NCBI RefSeq assembly: GCF_000257665.1
Contig: NZ_AJKR01000003.1
Location: 186,001 to 250,000, forward strand
DNA: 64,000 nt
Direction of reading: 5' to 3'
Origin: Candidatus Aquiluna sp. IMCC13023
GTDB lineage: Bacteria; Actinomycetota; Actinomycetes; Actinomycetales; Microbacteriaceae
Part shown: positions 30,365 through 39,185 of the stretch, piece after piece
Position numbering within the stretch: position 1 is the first letter of the stretch
Layout: each line of letters starts with the position of its first letter
Notes under the pieces: model-generated
What the model was told of the DNA's origin: nothing
The model's input: only the letters and a program-made list of their open reading frames with translations
The model's database searches: none
Translations under genes and position numbers: made by a program

Positions 30365-32719
30365 ATGACCGATACATCAGAACGAATTGTAGACATTGAT
30401 GTCTCTGCAGAAATGCAAGAGAGTTTCCTGGAGTACTCCTACTCTGTTATTTATTCAAGAGCTCTTCCAGATGCCAGAGATGGCCTAAAGCCTGTTCAGC
30501 GACGAATAATTTACCAAATGGGCGAGATGGGCCTGAAGTCCGACCGCGGTCACGTGAAGTCGGCCAGAGTCACCGGTGAAGTCATGGGAAAGCTACACCC
30601 GCACGGTGACCAGGCAATCTATGACGCTCTCGTGAGAATGTCGCAGGTTTTCTCACTGCGCCTTCCGCTTATAGACGGGCACGGAAACTTTGGAAGCCTC
30701 GATGACGGCCCAGCTGCAGCTAGGTACACCGAGGCCCGACTTGCCAAGGCTGCAGAGGCCCTAAATCAGAGCCTCGATGAAGACGTAGTCGACTTCACGC
30801 CAAACTACGATGCTCAGTTAACCGAACCTTCGGTTTTACCAGCTGCCTTCCCCAATCTTCTTGTCAACGGCGCCAGCGGTATCGCAGTCGGAATGGCAAC
30901 CAACATGCCACCTCATAATTTGCGAGAGGTCGTTGCAGCCCTGCACCTGCTGATCAAGAATCCTGATGCTTCTCTGGATCAGATTATGGAGGTACTACCT
31001 GGACCAGATTTGCCAGCTGGGGCCGTGGCCCTAGTCGGAGAAGGCCTTAGGGAGGCCTACCAAACTGGTCGAGGTACATTTCGCACCCGAGCAAAGATCT
31101 CGGTTGAAATGGTGGGTCCGCGACGCACAGGCTTGGTCGTCACTGAGCTTCCATACCTTGTCGGCCCCGAAAGGGTCATCGAAAAAATAAGGGACGCGGT
31201 GACCTCGAAGAAGCTCGAGGGAATCCACAACGTTGTCGACCTAACCGATCGCGAAAACGGACTGCGTCTAATCATTGAACTGAAAACCGGATTCGACCCT
31301 GCATCTGTCATAGATGCGCTTTACCGCTTGACGCCAATCGAGGAAAGCTTCGGCATAAACAATGTCGCGCTAGTCGAAGGCCGACCGCAGCAAATGCCAC
31401 TAAAGGCTCTTCTGGAGGTTTACCTCAAACACCGCATTAGCGTTACCACTCGACGAAGTAAAAACCGATTAGATCGCAGAATGGGAAGGCTCCACCTACT
31501 TGACGGTCTGGCGATTGCAGTACTAAACATTGACGAAATAATTGAGGTCATCAGAACCTCAGACACGGCCGACGCTGCTCGCGATCGACTTAGAACGGTG
31601 TTTGATCTCTCGGAGCTGCAATCCGATTACATTCTGGAACTACGGCTTCGAAGGCTCACTAGATTTAGCCTCATCGAGCTGGAGACAGAGGCCGACACCT
31701 TGCGAAAAGAAATCGCAAACCTTCAGCAATTGCTAGGAAGTGACGAGCTTGTAAAGCGATTGGTGTCCAAAGAACTTGACGAAGTCGCCGAAGAATTTGG
31801 GGACGCGAGGCGAACTCAATTAATAGATTCAGAGGGCGTTACAGTCTCTCGAAAGCCAGTACAGGTAGCTCAACTTGAGGACTCCCCCGCAACGGTAACT
31901 CTGGATGTATTGGGCAATCTTTTCCGCAGCGAGCCTTCATCACAGTCACAATCGGGATCAGGCAGTTTTATAAACACTTCTCTTAGGAAAGACGTCGGCC
32001 TAGTTACATCTAAGGGTCGAATACTAAGAGTTCACGTTTCTGACCTGCCAGCAATGTCGGCTGGCGTCTCCACAACTGCTTCCAGTGCTGACAAGTTTCT
32101 TGGGCTATCTGGCGAATCAGTTGTCGGTATAGCGGAATGGCTTAGCGATGCAACCTACGCAATCGGAACCAGTAACGGCGTTGTGAAGAGATTGACCGGG
32201 CCTTTCCCAGACAAGGAAGAGGTTGAAGTGATGGGGCTAAAAGATGGTGACAAGATTGTCGCATTCACCATTGCCCAGGATGGCTCAGAGCTCTGCTTCG
32301 TTACAAGCAACGCGAATGTCCTTATCTTCCCCGCAGCATCGGTGAGGCCTCAAGGGCTGAGCGCTGGCGGCATGTCAGGAATTACAGCCAGTAATTCCAG
32401 AGTCATCAGTTTTGGCGTGGTCGATTCTGATACTCACTTGGTAACAGCCGCTAACTCATCTTTGGCCCTTGGCTCAACTGATCCAGGCGCTATAAAAATA
32501 ACCCCTGTTGCCAATTACCCTCGGAAAGGTAGGGGAACCCAAGGCGTTAAATGCCACCGCTTTTTGAAAAATCAGGACCAGCTATATTTCGCAGGATTGT
32601 CCTCTGCGAGCCCCGTACTTCTAAACCTTGATGGCTCCGAACTCGCAGCGGTCGAGATTGACCAGCGCAGAGACGGCAGCGGACTAGCCATTGATGAATA
32701 TCTGGCGGCAGCCTTCTAA
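30365..32719 (+). CDS. parC: DNA topoisomerase IV subunit A (ParC-type)
   Basis: Type IIA topoisomerase A subunit of 784 residues for chromosome decatenation. The breakage-reunion domain holds [17 protein letters not shown] (about 32-48), [12 protein letters not shown] and catalytic Tyr121 in [11 protein letters not shown]-terminal beta-propeller starts near residue 530. It is convergent with parE, overlapping by 4 bp. A separate gyrase pair would be expected elsewhere, so ParC rather than GyrA is chosen by context with parE. Confidence 0.88.
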
Positions 32720-34770
32720 GCGTCTATTTTTTCTCTGTCAAAATCATCGGCTGAGTCAACAATAAAGTCACGCCTCGGAGCCACTTCGTTGCCCATCAAC
32801 AACTCGAAGGTTCGCTCTCCAGCGGCCGCGTCAACAGCCGTGATGCGTCGCAGCATCCGGTTCGAGGGTTGCATCGTGGTCTCAGCCAGCTGATCTGCAT
32901 CCATCTCGCCGAGGCCCTTATAGCGCTGAATAGGCTGTTTATATGACTTACCGGCCTTCTCAAGGCTTCTTAGAAGGTCATTGAGCTCCTGCTGTGAGTA
33001 TGTGTAAATGACCTCTTTGTTTCGACCCGCAGTCTCTACACGGTGAAGTGGGGGGACGGCCGCGTATACCCTTCCAGCCTCAACAAGTGGTCTCATGTAG
33101 CGGAAAAATAGCGTGAGCAGCAGGGTCCTGATATGAGCACCATCAACGTCCGCATCGCTCATGAGAATGATCTTCTCGTAGCGAACCTGCTCCAGATCAA
33201 AAGTTCGACCAGAACCTGCACCAAGAACCTGAATGATCGCAGCACATTCGGCATTGGAAAGCATGTCCGATAAGGACGCCTTCTGCACGTTTAGGATTTT
33301 GCCCCGAATAGGAAGTAGTGCCTGAAACGCCGAATCGCGAGCGAGTTTAGCCGTCCCCAGTGCGCTGTCACCCTCGACAATGAACAACTCAGAACCAACG
33401 GTGGCACTGCCGCGGCAATCGACAAGCTTGCTTGGTAGCGATGATGACTCAAGCGCGTTTTTCCTGCGCTGCGTGTCCTTCAGGCTCCTGGCACTAATGC
33501 GGGTCTTGGCCTCGCTAACAACTTTATCCAGAAGAGCATCAACCTCGGCTTTTGTGCCACGGATCTTGCCCGCAAGAAGCTCATCTGCCCATTTAGCAAC
33601 CGAGTTAGCAACTATCGCTTTTATTGCAGGAGTGCCGAGTGTCTCTTTGGTCTGGCCCTCGAACTGCGGCTCCGGAAAACTTACTGAGACCACTGCCGTG
33701 AGTCCCGCCATAACATCATCGCGCTCAATCTTTAGAGATGTCGCCTTCAATCGCCGAGCATTAGCCTCAATCGCAGTCCTGAAGGACTTGAGAAGGGCCT
33801 GCTCGAAACCAGTCAAGTGGGAGCCGCCCTTAGGGGTTGAGATTATGTTTACAAAAGACTTGACCCTCGTATCAAAACCACTGCCCCACCTCAGGGCGAC
33901 ATCCACAACACATTGTCGCTCGACCTCTTTGCTCTTCATTGAGCCTGACGCCTCGTCTAATACTGGAACCGTCTCCCGGAAGCTTGTCGTCTCATTGATT
34001 CGTCGGGTTGCCAACACTGGCCCGTCGGCCGCCAGGTACTCGACGTACTCAGTAATACCTCCCTCAAAGACAAACTCTTGACTGACATCGGAGAGCTCAT
34101 CGTGCACACTCAGGACCAACCCGGGAACTAAGAAAGCAGTCTGTCGTAGCCGGCTTTCCAAGTCCTGCATCTGAAAATCTGCACCAGGCTCAAAAATTTG
34201 TGAGTCTGGCCAATATCGAACCCGTGTGCCTGTTTTTGACTTAGTAACTTTGCCAACGACCCTAAGCTCACTTTTATCAACAAAAGGTGTGAAGTCCGCG
34301 GCTGGGCCCTCACTCGCAAAAACTCCCGGCTCGCCCCTGTGGAAGGACATAGCCCAAGTTTGACCGGCTCGATCCACCTCAACATCCAGACGAGAACTCA
34401 ACGCATTCACTACGGATGCACCGACTCCGTGCAAGCCACCGGAAGCTCCGTAGGATCCGCCACCAAATTTGCCACCGGCATGCAGCTTTGTGAAGACAAC
34501 TTCAACGCCAGACAGACCAGTTCTAGGTTCTATGTCGACCGGCACTCCTCGGCCGTCGTCTTGAACCGTGATAGAGCCGTCGGTGTGAATTACTACGCCT
34601 ATGCGTTTACCGTGCCCCGCGAGAGCCTCGTCGACCGAGTTATCAATTATTTCCCAAAGGCAATGCATAAGACCGCGACCGTCGGTCGATCCGATATACA
34701 TGCCCGGTCTTTTTCTAACTGCCTCGAGCCCCTCAAGGACCGAAAGGTGTCTAGCTGAGTAATCATCCAC
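32716..34770 (-). CDS. parE: DNA topoisomerase IV subunit B (ParE-type)
   Basis: GHKL ATPase subunit partnering ParC. Motifs: RKRPGMYIGSTDGRGLMH, the ATP-site NSVDEA, DDGRGVPVD, GGLHGVGASVVNAL, then TOPRIM with EGDSALG and DADVDGAH. From GTG 34770 it is 684 residues. A longer frame reaches 34839, but 34770 fits the family (VDDYSARHLSVLEG) and has TATTGT ending 6 bases upstream, as in other leaderless genes here. Placed head-to-head with the DUF7455 gene. Confidence 0.9.
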   Translation of the reverse strand: MDDYSARHLSVLEGLEAVRKRPGMYIGSTDGRGLMHCLWEIIDNSVDEALAGHGKRIGVVIHTDGSITVQDDGRGVPVDIEPRTGLSGVEVVFTKLHAGGKFGGGSYGASGGLHGVGASVVNALSSRLDVEVDRAGQTWAMSFHRGEPGVFASEGPAADFTPFVDKSELRVVGKVTKSKTGTRVRYWPDSQIFEPGADFQMQDLESRLRQTAFLVPGLVLSVHDELSDVSQEFVFEGGITEYVEYLAADGPVLATRRINETTSFRETVPVLDEASGSMKSKEVERQCVVDVALRWGSGFDTRVKSFVNIISTPKGGSHLTGFEQALLKSFRTAIEANARRLKATSLKIERDDVMAGLTAVVSVSFPEPQFEGQTKETLGTPAIKAIVANSVAKWADELLAGKIRGTKAEVDALLDKVVSEAKTRISARSLKDTQRRKNALESSSLPSKLVDCRGSATVGSELFIVEGDSALGTAKLARDSAFQALLPIRGKILNVQKASLSDMLSNAECAAIIQVLGAGSGRTFDLEQVRYEKIILMSDADVDGAHIRTLLLTLFFRYMRPLVEAGRVYAAVPPLHRVETAGRNKEVIYTYSQQELNDLLRSLEKAGKSYKQPIQRYKGLGEMDADQLAETTMQPSNRMLRRITAVDAAAGERTFELLMGNEVAPRRDFIVDSADDFDREKIDA

Positions 34771-34879
34771 CCCGAAACAATAACCCCGGTTGAGCAGACT
34801 GGCACTATGCCACTTCGCCGTAAGAGAAACTGGCTCCAAATGTCACATGCCTTTGGCCCAAGCGTGGTTAAATGTAGCT

Positions 34880-35077
34880 ATGGAAAACACAACAGAAACT
34901 ACAAAGCTATTGGTTAGTGACCGATGTGACGTTTGCGGAGCTCAGGCATACATGAGGGTTCAACTAGCAGGCGGAGAGTTACTGTTTTGCGCACACCACG
35001 GAAATGCCAATAAGGCAAAGCTTGAGCCAATAACCCTGGAGTGGCACGACCAAAGTTCTGACCTAAACCAGGCCTAG
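34880..35077 (+). CDS. DUF7455-type small zinc-ribbon protein
   Basis: 65 residues: SDRCDVCGAQAYMRVQLAGG and ELLFCAHHGN, giving a CxxC...CxxH site that probably binds zinc. Common in actinobacteria near topoisomerase and sigma genes; function unknown. An upstream in-frame start at 34790 is unlikely. ATG 34880 fits the family, with a TTAAAT hexamer 6 bases before it. Confidence 0.82.
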   Translation: MENTTETTKLLVSDRCDVCGAQAYMRVQLAGGELLFCAHHGNANKAKLEPITLEWHDQSSDLNQA

Positions 35078-35140: not shown

Positions 35141-35707
35141 CTAAGAAGAATTCGATCCTCGAATAGCTTCGACCCAATTTCTCATTTGTGGCTGCCAGTC
35201 GGCCGGAGATCCTCCGCAAGCAACAAGCATCTGGTCCAATAGGTTTGGATTCTTTGCCAAAAGGGGCCCGAATAACGTGGTCGCGATGAAGTCACCATTC
35301 CGGACGAAGTCTATGTCTGCTATTGAACTATTTCGATAACCGACAACAGGCCCGGCCTCATCGGTAACAACCGACCTAAACTCACTCACCACGGACCCGA
35401 GTCTTGGTGTATCTAGCCAAGTAACTTGAGAAGCCAAAAACTCATAGCTTGACCCAACAAGTAGCGTTGGCAGCCCAGCATCGTGCCTGGCCTGTAAGGC
35501 AGGTGCCAAGTCCAAAAGCTCCTTGCCATACTCGCGAATCGCCGCGCGACTAGCGTCCCCAATCAGAACGAAATCGGCGGATGACAACTCACCCGCCTCG
35601 TCAAATGAGACAGCTTGCTCGGCCAGAAAATACTTGAGAACAGACAGGTTTCCTTGATCCCCGTTGTTATCAAAATATTCGCTGTGGAAACTAAAATAAT
35701 GAGTCAC
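35141..35707 (-). CDS. GatD-like protein lacking glutaminase catalytic residues
   Basis: 188 residues, clearly homologous along its length to GatD, the glutaminase of the lipid II isoglutaminyl synthase. GDQGNLSVL (about 16-24) matches the GDxGN motif, IGDASRAA matches the GGGxDR loop and TLFGPLLAKNP matches TYLHGPxLPKNP. But the nucleophile Cys of the CGGYQ motif is replaced by Gly (VGSSYEFL, G85), the catalytic His by Phe (F146), and the GFENHGG loop reads GYRNSS. It is also shorter than normal GatD (about 240). It therefore should not hydrolyse glutamine. GTG start overlaps the MurT-like gene by 4 bases, so the two are made together. Confidence 0.85.
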   Translation of the reverse strand: MTHYFSFHSEYFDNNGDQGNLSVLKYFLAEQAVSFDEAGELSSADFVLIGDASRAAIREYGKELLDLAPALQARHDAGLPTLLVGSSYEFLASQVTWLDTPRLGSVVSEFRSVVTDEAGPVVGYRNSSIADIDFVRNGDFIATTLFGPLLAKNPNLLDQMLVACGGSPADWQPQMRNWVEAIRGSNSS

Positions 35708-36906
35708 TTGGCTAGCCCCCAGTGTCTTCTGACGCGACGCATTGCATCTGCACTAAACAGCAGAGTGTGACCAGTGCCTGGTAGCGCAAGAAAACTATCC
35801 GCGGCAGCGGCAGCATCCTCAATCACAACTCCAACTTCTACGCCGTCAAAAGCCAAGCGCAGAGCAAGCTCATTGGCGTTAAATCCGCCAACAATATCTA
35901 CTTTCTTTATCTTCGAAAAATCAACTGTCCAGAGCCAACTCGGATCGTGAATGTCACGACCGGCCATAAACATAAGTGGGGTTTGGTCCAGAACTAGCTC
36001 ATCTAAGTTCAACTGAAAGCTTGTCGGATTCTGGACCAACCGTATAACCACATCCACGCCAGAGACTTCGACCTTTTCGTTTCGCGCAAAAACTGGTTTC
36101 AGTTCTTTGAGCACCGCACTAATAATGCTCTCGGACGGCTTGATCAATTGATGCACCGCAGCGACAGCGGCTGACAAATTCAGCGCTTGATGCTCTGGCA
36201 AGCTTGTTGTGACGTACTTGGTCTCACCCTCGGAGTGAACCATAATGCTGTCCTTGCCGGCCTGAGTAAATGCATCGATAGCCGGGTGGGGACCAAAATT
36301 CAAAGCGTAATTGGCCCTTCGAGTCTTTGCCATCTCAGCAGAAAGCCCGAACCCGATAACGGGTGCAGTGAATTCCAGTTGAGCTAAGTTCTTGTCGTCA
36401 ATGTTTAGAACAACCACCTTGGCGGCTGACCCTATTTGTTTCAGCATTGCAATTACGTCATCCGGGTCATTGAACCGATCTAGCTGATCCGAATAAACAT
36501 TAGTGAGAACCGCCAATCGCACCTCAAGCTCCCCGGCAAGAACGGCCCCGTGACCCTCGTCGAACTCCAACACCGCGATGTCAGAGTCCAGCCGGCCTCG
36601 CCAGTTACCCTGTTTTAATACGGCCGCAACAAGGCCCTGCCGGATGTTTGCCGTGCTGCTATTTGTAAAGACGCGAAGCCCGTGGGCTTCTAGCAGGGTA
36701 ACTAGGTAGCTGGTTGTCGACGACTTTCCTGCCGAACCGGAGACGACCACTAGCCCATGATCTAGAGCTGCAAGGGCATTGGAAAGCAGCTTTGGATCTA
36801 ATTTATTTGCCACTACTCCCGGAAGTGCGGAGCCTCCGCCTGGCCTGACTAGACGAACGAGAAACCGTAATAGCTTCCCGATCGAAACCGCCAGGATGGC
36901 ACGCAT
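35704..36906 (-). CDS. MurT-like Mur ligase (DUF1727) without the zinc ribbon
   Basis: 400-residue Mur-ligase-family ATPase. P-loop GSAGKSSTT (about 57-65), FDEGHG, NVYSDQLDRF (about 136-145), VFARNEKVEV and the C-terminal DUF1727 segment SWLWTVDF. MurT normally activates the D-Glu alpha-carboxyl of lipid II for amidation with GatD-supplied ammonia. Ordinary MurT carries four cysteines forming a zinc ribbon; this protein has no cysteine at all. ATP-binding and core motifs are kept, so it looks functional but altered. Its ATG abuts the sigA stop, making a sigA-murT-gatD transcript likely. Confidence 0.85.
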   Translation of the reverse strand: MRAILAVSIGKLLRFLVRLVRPGGGSALPGVVANKLDPKLLSNALAALDHGLVVVSGSAGKSSTTSYLVTLLEAHGLRVFTNSSTANIRQGLVAAVLKQGNWRGRLDSDIAVLEFDEGHGAVLAGELEVRLAVLTNVYSDQLDRFNDPDDVIAMLKQIGSAAKVVVLNIDDKNLAQLEFTAPVIGFGLSAEMAKTRRANYALNFGPHPAIDAFTQAGKDSIMVHSEGETKYVTTSLPEHQALNLSAAVAAVHQLIKPSESIISAVLKELKPVFARNEKVEVSGVDVVIRLVQNPTSFQLNLDELVLDQTPLMFMAGRDIHDPSWLWTVDFSKIKKVDIVGGFNANELALRLAFDGVEVGVVIEDAAAAADSFLALPGTGHTLLFSADAMRRVRRHWGLAK

Positions 36907-38145
36907 TTAGCCGTCCAGGTAGTCGCGAAGAAGTTGTGATCTAGAAGGGTGTCGAAGCTTCGACATGGTCTTTGACTCGATTTGCCTAATGCGCTCTCTA
37001 GTCACGCCAAATTTTTCGCCAATCTGGTCAAGAGTCATCTGAACTCCATCACCCAGGCCGAATCGGGAGCGAATCACTCCAGCCTCACGAGGGTGAAGGC
37101 TATCTAATACTCGCTCTAATTCTTGCTGAAGCATTGTGAAGCCAACGGCGTCGGCTGGGACAACTGCCTCGGTGTCCTCGATCAGGTCACCGAATTCGCT
37201 GTCGCCATCTTCTCCCAAAGGAGTAGAAAGTGAGATTGGCTCTCTTCCGTACTTTTGGACCTCGACGACCTTTTCAGGGGTCATGTCCAATTCGGCTGCC
37301 AGCTCGTCGGGAGTTGGCTCTCTTCCAAGGTCCTGAAGTAGCTGACGCTGAACTCTGGCCAGCTTGTTGATTACCTCGACCATGTGAACAGGGATGCGAA
37401 TAGTTCGCGCCTGGTCTGCCATCGCGCGAGTAATAGCCTGCCTGATCCACCAAGTGGCGTAGGTCGAGAACTTAAAGCCCTTTGTGTAGTCGAATTTCTC
37501 GACCGCACGAATCAAGCCGAGGTTTCCCTCTTGAATCAAATCTAGGAACTGCATGCCGCGTCCGGTGTAACGCTTGGCCAGTGAGACCACCAAACGAAGG
37601 TTCGCTTCCAGAAGGTGCGATTTTGAACGCTTTCCGTCCTTCACAACCCAGTTCAAGTCCCTGCGGTCCGCCGGTGCGAGCTTAGATTCGGTAGCAAGTT
37701 TGTCTTCGGCAAACAAACCGGCCTCAATACGCTTTGCAAGCTCAACTTCCAACTCAGCGTTTAGAAGGGCAACCTTGCCGATCTGCTTCAGGTAGTCCTT
37801 GACGGGATCAGCAGTTGCTCCAGTGATTGCTAAATTTTGGACCGGAATGTCGTCCTCGTCATCGTTGATGACTAGGGCACCCTTAGGTAGCTCGATGGCT
37901 GCAGTTACCGGATCCAAGTCGGTATCCAGGCTCAGATCAACCGCTGAGGTTGCCTCCGAAACGATGTCCTCTACCGAGGCCTCTTTTTTGACCTTTGGCT
38001 TTGTCGTTGTTTTCTTCGCAGCGGCCTTTACGGGTGCAGCGGAATCCTTCTTTGGCGCGGACTTTACCGGCTTGACGCTCGCCTTCTTAGTATCAGCCTT
38101 GACGGCTTTCTCTGTTGGGGCTTCTTTGGCTTTCGCCTTTGACAC
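36907..38145 (-). CDS. sigA: Primary RNA polymerase sigma factor
   Basis: Group 1 sigma-70 of 412 residues. A low-complexity Lys/Ala/Thr-rich N-terminus (about 1-60) is followed by region 1.2 ([16 protein letters not shown]), region 2 ([36 protein letters not shown]), region 3, and region 4 ([20 protein letters not shown]). It directs housekeeping transcription. GTG start; TATCAT ends 7 bases upstream, so its own mRNA is probably leaderless. A separate inverted repeat lies behind that. Confidence 0.95.
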
Positions 38146-38279: not shown

Positions 38280-39185
38280 TTATTCCTGAGAATCAGTATT
38301 TTTTCTCATCGTCGAAAGATAATTTTCTAGCTCTTCGGTCAGCTCGTCGACACTTCGAGGCTCCCCTGAGGGTTTGCTGATGGGCGCCTTTGAAGGGCCA
38401 GAGCCACCGCTGGCGTAACCGGCTTCAAGGGTCTGCACCAATTTACTCAATTCCGGGTTGTCCTCTATTTGGCTCTTGACCTTGGTTTCAAACTTTCCGG
38501 CATCATGGCGCAGCTGATCCGATGGGAACACGAGCCCAGTTGCCGCGCTGATTAGCTCGAGGCCGGTTATCGCGGCATTTGGCACCTCGTTGTCAGCCAA
38601 ATAGTGAGGTACCAAAAGCACAAACCCGGCAGTGTTCACGCCCTGGGCACTCAAACGAAATTCCAGTAGGTGTGTCACGTTTCCTGGAACCTGAGTCTGG
38701 GGTTTCCACTCCGAAAACCTTTCAATCATCTCCTTGCGATTTCCCGACACTGTCACGCCAACCGGTCTTGTGTGAGGAATCGGGAAGGGGATGGAATGAA
38801 CCCAAGTGAAATTTGAGACCTGAAAGCGCTGAATGATTTCAAGGAGGCTCGCGGCAAATGCCTCCCACTTCAAATCCGGCTCGTAGCCATCTAAAAGCAA
38901 AAACGGCTGTTGCGCTTCGTCGAACACAAGGTGCACGGATAGCGACGGTGGCTCATAGGACTCGATGTGATCCTTCTCGAAAAATAGCGCTGGACGCCTT
39001 GATCGATAATCCAAAAATTCATCGTTGTCAAAACTCAGAACCAATTCGTGATTTAGCTCCGAGAAAAAGTGATCAGACAGCTGAGAAATGGTGCTCCCTG
39101 AATCGCTAAATCCAGAAATCAGGGCGACCATCGGCAGTCCAGATGGAATCTCGGCATGACTGAATTGTTCGTATAGCTGGTTCAC
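38280..39185 (-). CDS. PAC2-family (proteasome assembly chaperone-like) protein
   Basis: 301 residues with PAC2-family features: LPMVALISGFSDSGSTISQLSDH (about 17-39), LLLDGYEPDLKWEAF and the C-terminal LELISAATGLVFPSDQL. Bacterial members resemble archaeal and eukaryotic proteasome assembly chaperones, but no role is settled. No proteasome genes are visible here. GTG start with TACGCT ending 6 bases upstream; divergent from pepA. Confidence 0.82.
   Translation of the reverse strand: MNQLYEQFSHAEIPSGLPMVALISGFSDSGSTISQLSDHFFSELNHELVLSFDNDEFLDYRSRRPALFFEKDHIESYEPPSLSVHLVFDEAQQPFLLLDGYEPDLKWEAFAASLLEIIQRFQVSNFTWVHSIPFPIPHTRPVGVTVSGNRKEMIERFSEWKPQTQVPGNVTHLLEFRLSAQGVNTAGFVLLVPHYLADNEVPNAAITGLELISAATGLVFPSDQLRHDAGKFETKVKSQIEDNPELSKLVQTLEAGYASGGSGPSKAPISKPSGEPRSVDELTEELENYLSTMRKNTDSQE

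Follow-up and report, generated by a model that had tools for sequence, protein, structure and literature searches.

A MurT/GatD-like pair without the glutaminase nucleophile occupies an exchangeable sigA-parE slot in Microbacteriaceae and is a candidate for starting the group-B cross-bridge

The window analyzed here, a stretch of 64,000 nucleotides, carries directly behind sigA a MurT/GatD-like pair whose GatD has no glutaminase nucleophile. We found that the interval between sigA and parE in Microbacteriaceae is a swappable slot, occupied by such a pair (class B), by a second kind of dead MurT/GatD (class C) or by a CofE-like protein, almost always one of them, and this slot is a new finding. 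The nucleophile is absent, the Mur-ligase residues are kept, the pair is under purifying selection, it is restricted to the family in our sample of the order, and its swapping is nearly exclusive. MurT/GatD amidates the D-Glu alpha-carboxyl of lipid II, and the Microbacteriaceae as a whole have group-B walls, in which the bridge sits on that D-Glu alpha-carboxyl. We propose that MurT-B activates this carboxyl and that an amino acid replaces ammonia, which would make the reaction the first step of the group-B bridge in Microbacteriaceae; we hold this reading with a probability of about 0.6. The loss of the ammonia site, seen in most of the members examined of a large family from soil and water, together with a slot repeatedly refilled by other amide-forming enzymes, makes the pair a strong candidate for the cross-bridge starter. 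The features of the window used below are the following, with MurT residues matched to those of S. pneumoniae and the classes defined further on.

35704..36906, minus strand: murT-B, a MurT-like Mur ligase of 400 aa without zinc ribbon and without cysteine
35141..35707, minus strand: gatD-B, GatD-like, 188 aa, GTG start; nucleophile and catalytic His absent
35453..35455, minus strand: codon of GatD Gly85, the position of the Cys nucleophile
35270..35272, minus strand: codon of GatD Phe146, the position of the catalytic His
36724..36726, minus strand: MurT Lys61, the lysine of the P-loop, invariant (100%) across classes A, A', B and C
36646..36648, minus strand: MurT Asn87, equal to S. pneumoniae Asn85; 100% in class B
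36556..36561, minus strand: MurT Asp116-Glu117, equal to S. pneumoniae Asp112-Glu113; 100% in class B
36082..36084, minus strand: MurT Arg275, the hinge Arg, equal to S. pneumoniae Arg304; 100% in class B
35944..35946, minus strand: MurT Asp321, the C-terminal Asp of the gate on the GatD side, matched by motif to S. pneumoniae Asp355; 100% in class B
36907..38145, minus strand: sigA, directly upstream of murT-B and the fixed boundary of the cassette slot on the left
32716..34839, minus strand: a gene that we take to be of the parE/gyrB type, which bounds the slot on the right in relatives
38280..39185, minus strand: a gene that we presume to belong to the PAC2 family, the state-neutral marker in the search for named-species loci

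Both reading frames of the pair are intact at these coordinates, with the murT ATG immediately after the sigA stop codon and a 4-base overlap between the gatD GTG start and the murT stop. The first-pass annotation had described Gly85 in place of the nucleophile, Phe146 in place of the catalytic histidine and GYRNSS in place of the ENH loop, and all three are read in the window sequence, where the sole cysteine of GatD is residue 164. It had also described a MurT partner that keeps its P-loop and MurT_C domain and has no cysteine at all, hence no zinc ribbon; Lys61 is in place, PF08353 is matched over its cut-off and the absence of cysteine was confirmed. Its claim that GatD aligns over the whole length was too strong, as the protein is 188 aa long, whereas its relatives have about 240, and the segment before the His motif is absent. 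The genome that carries the window comprises 1,359,862 bases in 6 contigs, and the earlier question of an intact second MurT/GatD was answered in the negative, since no second MurT was found with PF08353 and the class-B profile at 1e-20 (assembly 99.5% complete). By eye, a short open stretch in the gap between parE and gatD (34910-35077, plus strand) resembles a small CxxC...CxHH protein.

The window pair is homologous to MurT/GatD, as seen for MurT in Pfam, NCBIfam and PDB sequence comparisons and for GatD mainly in its predicted structure. The window MurT is over the Pfam cut-offs for Mur_ligase_M (PF08245; 1.2e-13, 52 bits) and MurT_C (PF08353; 2.1e-7, 31.3 bits), does not reach the cut-off of the NCBIfam equivalog (117 of 800 bits), and is also recognized as a MurT homologue by PDB sequence search. 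The window GatD scores far below the NCBIfam GatD cut-off (2e-6, 27.8 of 450 bits) and has no Pfam glutaminase match. In its AlphaFold model (188 residues; pLDDT 72, pTM 0.66) the class I glutaminase fold of GatD appears to be present and the nine best PDB matches are GatD chains, and the ten best matches of the MurT model (pLDDT 84) are MurT chains. The murT-gatD gene order is present in the window, and a GatD-like ORF adjoins MurT in 90/90 loci of relatives, all of which were picked for a MurT match.

A Pfam MurT_C search gave a match in 137 of 199 Microbacteriaceae genomes; with the class-B profile, 163 of the same genomes have a MurT at E <= 1e-20. The 90 loci of relatives, each picked for its MurT match, were read and classed as follows.

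Class A: 18 loci, intact GatD, MurT without ribbon
Class A': 4 loci, intact GatD, MurT with ribbon
Class B: 57 loci, GatD without Cys, MurT without ribbon
Class C: 9 loci, THN at the Cys position of GatD, MurT with ribbon knuckles in 7/9
Odd loci L036 and L065: 2 loci, GatD likewise without Cys

The nucleophile cysteine is present in 18/18 class A and 4/4 class A' GatDs and in 0/57 class B and 0/9 class C GatDs. Similarly, in a sample of named species (the best 80 of 563 loci, from Agromyces, Cryobacterium, Leifsonia and similar genera), GatD was readable in 65/80 loci and had the cysteine in 0/65 (62 B, 3 C); the remaining loci among these best 80 comprise 8 with a CofE-like gene instead and 7 that are cut off or have no readable GatD. 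When 396 genomes of the order were searched with class B, scores above 404 bits were confined to Microbacteriaceae. Thirty loci were fetched in this order-wide search: the 19 from Microbacteriaceae, the window's included, lack the cysteine, and the 11 best matches outside the family all have it, with GatD intact in 11/11. The first-pass annotation had suggested following the loss of both catalytic residues in relatives; this loss is general for the cysteine, absent from every class B and class C GatD read, and is not so for the histidine, kept in 60% of class B. Loss of the cysteine is thus the rule in class B; loss of the histidine and the shortening of the window's GatD are not general.

The zinc ribbon, whose loss had been taken as a sign of repurposing, is no marker of it, since 0/18 class A MurTs have the four-Cys ribbon and yet their GatD partners are intact. 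The zinc-binding Cys tetrad is present in only some Actinobacteria, according to the available part of PMC6085368. In a quick tree of MurT, class B forms one clade and class C another, and the Cys state changes twice, which, barring a regain, suggests at least two losses of the glutaminase; from its sequences, class C appears to be a second, separate loss. Class C loci (L024-L031, L048, L203, L215, L224) have THN for the Cys motif and also lie behind sigA, and their MurT mostly has a zinc ribbon. The small-genome relatives L037, L038 (G015) and L039 retain a Cys-less pair.

The MurT residues expected of a working ligase are kept. In class B, the P-loop Lys, Asn85, Asp112, Glu113, Arg140, Arg304 and the C-terminal Asp355 (S. 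pneumoniae numbering throughout) are conserved at 100% and Asn322 at 96%; the residues compared are those discussed for S. pneumoniae, several of which were shown by mutation to be needed (PMC6085368, in the text available). Median dN/dS in Cryobacterium, Agromyces and Leifsonia was 0.11-0.21 for murT, 0.25-0.37 for gatD and 0.12-0.28 for sigA, computed on at most 12 loci per genus with mechanical ORF starts, and the largest value for Leifsonia gatD was 1.15. The murT-B and gatD-B genes are therefore under purifying selection. These results bear on the view that the pair is a decaying MurT/GatD remnant in a streamlined genome, which would account for the shortened window GatD and its lost histidine. 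We find this view barely tenable, because class-B scores were obtained for about 130/199 genomes of the family, many of them 3-4 Mb in size (the Cys site was read in 57 loci), the Mur residues are conserved and the median dN/dS is well below 1. The random decay in close relatives that the first-pass annotation had considered is likewise contradicted by the uniform lack of the cysteine (0/57 in class B, 0/65 in named species) and by the purifying dN/dS. We rejected random decay on the spread of class B, the kept residues and a median dN/dS well below 1.

Two positions near the partner subunit differ from the canonical pair. At Arg135, next to the GatD gate, every class A, A' and C MurT has Arg, whereas the commonest residue in class B is Val and the window has Ser. 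Trp360 of S. pneumoniae MurT is required for GatD binding (PMC6085368, partial text), and in class B the commonest residue at this position is Tyr (58%), with Trp in the window, so that continued GatD binding in class B is an assumption. In the mechanism we propose, MurT-B would phosphorylate the D-Glu alpha-carboxyl of the lipid-linked precursor with ATP, and GatD-B, presumably without glutaminase activity, would stay as the partner of MurT-B. The amino group of the bridge amino acid would then attack in place of ammonia, where both substrate and nucleophile are what we infer; the attacking amino acid would most likely be the D-diamino acid of the bridge, 2,4-diaminobutyrate in the case of the window's nearest characterized relative.

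The sigA gene lies upstream on the same strand in 64/66 class B and C loci, mostly at 25 bases or less (with mechanical starts), the two exceptions being L037, where no more than 236 bases precede the pair, and L091, which is a second B-like copy. Such linkage would suit a noncatalytic complex with a regulatory or sensing role connected to sigA, but the conserved catalytic residues and the sharing of the slot with CofE-like, ATP-grasp and racemase genes make this very improbable. That the pair is common to all members of the family was rejected, as 36/199 genomes have no MurT at E <= 1e-20; the GatD-B profile gave two weak matches only in those 36. In 27 of the 36 we found a divergent CofE-like protein (PF01996, about 233 aa), encoded behind sigA in 24 and on other contigs in 3; in G020, a transaminase gene stands between sigA and the CofE-like gene. 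By Pfam, the slot-type CofE-like protein occurs in 28/199 genomes, 27 of which are among the 36 without MurT.

The chief support for the proposed ligation beyond sequence is this repeated, almost exclusive replacement by a CofE-family protein. At the Pfam threshold, noncanonical MurT and CofE-like overlap in 1 of 199 genomes (Fisher p 3e-17, ignoring kinship). A tree-controlled test on 107 loci (the 110-locus set minus three) gave 14 independent pairs, of which 11-12 favored exclusion, 1 opposed it and the rest showed no difference, with a median p of 0.006. On the sigA+parE tree of 110 loci, five slot states need 28 changes, those of the CofE state numbering at least 12 on well-supported branches, and MurT and CofE types interchange 15 times among the cassette-bearing loci of the 107-locus set. 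In g85, the most sampled genus of the order search, 5 genomes have class B and 12 are listed without a match at 1e-60; G164, the sole one of these 12 looked at, has the CofE-like gene. The exclusion is not absolute, as G123 and its congener G053 carry a CofE-like gene side by side with an odd MurT and GatD, the row lying directly behind sigA in G123 and the CofE of G053 falling below the Pfam threshold. The arrangement at L147 (G123) and L065 (G053), CofE-like and then an unusual MurT and GatD, could be a hybrid cassette.

A known member of the CofE family joins an amino acid to a carboxylate. The divergent slot family (for example L104:2361-3062 and L120:3695-4402) has 67% mean column identity in its alignment, and 19/28 genomes with slot-type CofE also have a standard, high-scoring PF01996 match elsewhere. 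In genus g49 (L112, L114, L117), 2-3 kb of other sequence lies between sigA and parE, which in L112 includes an apparent ABC-transporter binding protein, and neither MurT nor slot-type CofE was found in the g49 genomes.

Other genes accompany the cassettes. A PF14397-type ATP-grasp gene was found in 34/199 genomes, namely 25/28 with CofE-like, 7/12 with class C and 2 others (G018, G099), and it adjoins 22/24 CofE loci versus 1/55 B loci. Examples are L104:3125-4144 and L113:3088-5132; there are sometimes two in tandem, and some class C loci also have one alongside. Alanine-racemase-family genes lie downstream of sigA (before parE where parE was seen), and the five scanned match PF01168 and PF00842. 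Counting only loci with at least 4 kb downstream, such slot racemases were present in 20/53 B, 10/24 CofE, 1/1 mixed, 0/4 C and 1/23 empty loci of the 199-genome set, and in 10/42 B, 1/7 CofE and 0/1 C named-species loci (from the best 80 of 563). They are extra copies, since among 80 genomes three or more Ala_racemase_C matches occur in 31/32 with a slot racemase versus 2/48 others; G015 has one such match only, and one was found in the window's genome. A diaminobutyrate transaminase lies inside two CofE slots, L120 and L105, both over the TIGR00709 cut-off and that of L120 also over the NF006733 cut-off. Racemases and transaminase fit as parts wanted for a D-diamino acid bridge. The diaminobutyrate link is not general, since TIGR00709 at E <= 1e-100 is found in only 35/199 genomes and was not found in that of the window, whose own slot contains no racemase, ATP-grasp or diaminobutyrate transaminase.

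Swapping with another amide-ligase family and the nearby racemase genes favor ligation of an amino acid over that of ammonia. The pair could instead still amidate D-Glu using free ammonia rather than glutamine, with GatD as a structural partner, as S. aureus MurT/GatD accepts ammonia at pH 8.5 and requires GatD for it (available text of PMC6085368). The ligase residues kept in class B are also compatible with such a reaction. It would, however, leave the CofE-like exchange and the frequent extra racemase neighbors unexplained, and the alpha-carboxyl carries the bridge in group-B walls, so we regard amidation by free ammonia as improbable.

The chief weakness of the amino-acid ligation we prefer is that 27/199 genomes have no cassette and that at least four hold both canonical and class-B-scoring copies. 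The cassette-less genomes comprise 18 with canonical MurT/GatD only and 9 with neither, two of the latter (G022 and G146) being 87% complete. In genomes with canonical MurT/GatD only, no recognized ligase was seen in the sigA-parE interval of 13/13 loci read; L137 (G151), which has canonical MurT/GatD, has a 1.6 kb sigA-parE interval in which the profiles used recognized no gene. If the cassette-less genomes have group-B walls too, another bridge route must exist. Class A and class-B-scoring copies occur together in G054, G066, G124 and G163, three of these assemblies being fragmented, and possibly also in a fifth genome, G159. A function that is not universal in the family would also suit cassettes that are amide ligases for another wall site or polymer, such as a position elsewhere on the stem or a secondary polymer. 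We think this unlikely, as the parent MurT acts on the D-Glu alpha-carboxyl and the substrate Asn and the acidic pair are conserved at 100% in class B.

Published wall types were compared with the cassettes. Rhodoluna lacicola, a near relative of Aquiluna, has a B2beta wall with Dab, in which 2,4-diaminobutyrate occurs as D-Ala-D-Dab in the bridge (PMC4156110, in part). Subtercola vilae DB165 has a B2gamma wall with DAB (PMC5945732, in part), and contig L201 of the same strain carries class B. In the portion of PMC7033078 available (Table 3, genus level), Cryobacterium is B2gamma and Glaciihabitans B10; in the named-species sample (best 80 of 563), Cryobacterium has class B in 19/19 loci and Glaciihabitans has 4 loci of class B, 1 of class C and one that is cut. 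The same Table 3 gives a type B wall with Lys and Orn for Salinibacterium, which has two CofE-type loci and one of class B (best 80 of 563), and a B1alpha wall with DAB for Lacisediminihabitans, reported for L. profunda. The locus of Lacisediminihabitans changchengi is of the CofE type, which means that there is no simple correspondence between cassette type and diamino acid. A rule in which class B goes with diaminobutyrate walls, and CofE or class C plus ATP-grasp with lysine or ornithine walls, was not upheld, given the two CofE slots with diaminobutyrate transaminase, the CofE-type L. changchengi and the patternless TIGR00709. For Pontimonas salivibrio, a relative, direct crosslinks and no bridge enzymes were deduced from gene content (PMC6106888, in the part available). 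The walls readable for published class-B carriers, which are few and mostly at genus level, are group B. The expected tracking of cysteine loss with group-B walls is thus consistent with these carriers and is not proved, given the 27/199 cassette-less genomes. In the literature covered, with most subscription journals outside it, we found no paper connecting group-B walls to MurT and none that names a bridge ligase.

Taken together, the first observation on this pair was confirmed and extended to the family, and its interpretation as repurposing is partly supported: loss of the cysteine, the ligase residues, the swapping and the racemases fit ligation of an amino acid to D-Glu, the zinc-ribbon argument falls away and the wall tracking is weaker than expected. 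A broader proposal, to which we give slightly less than even odds, is that the sigA-parE interval is a group-B cross-bridge locus. At least three separately derived and exchangeable ligase systems (class B, class C and CofE-like, the last two often with ATP-grasp) would there put bridge amino acids on the D-Glu alpha-carboxyl, in many genomes with dedicated racemases making the D-diamino acid, and the cassette would set the bridge type. The group-B cross-bridge serves as a defining character of a large bacterial family, and the locus narrows the search for its enzyme to a short gene list. If the proposal is true, loss of the ammonia source turned an amidotransferase into an amino-acid ligase on at least two occasions, and the dead subunit was retained.

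Compared with known systems, the pair resembles the MurT/GatD lipid II isoglutaminyl synthase of S. aureus, S. pneumoniae and M. tuberculosis in operon order, in the Mur-ligase fold with MurT_C, in the substrate and nucleotide residues and in the predicted GatD fold. Unlike that enzyme, the window and class-B GatDs have no Cys nucleophile and their MurTs have lost the gate Arg135, and class B sits behind sigA and swaps with other ligases; the zinc ribbon is absent as well, but this absence is common to the intact class A of Microbacteriaceae. The slot protein resembles CofE, the coenzyme F420-0:L-glutamate ligase (PF01996), in that the examples scanned exceed the Pfam cut-off, and differs in lying far below the NCBIfam equivalog cut-off (30.3 bits vs 180.65). 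The FemABX and ATP-grasp Asl bridge ligases of group-A walls have folds unrelated to MurT/GatD and act on the side chain of residue 3; if our proposal is true, the pair would share with them the task of attaching bridge residues.
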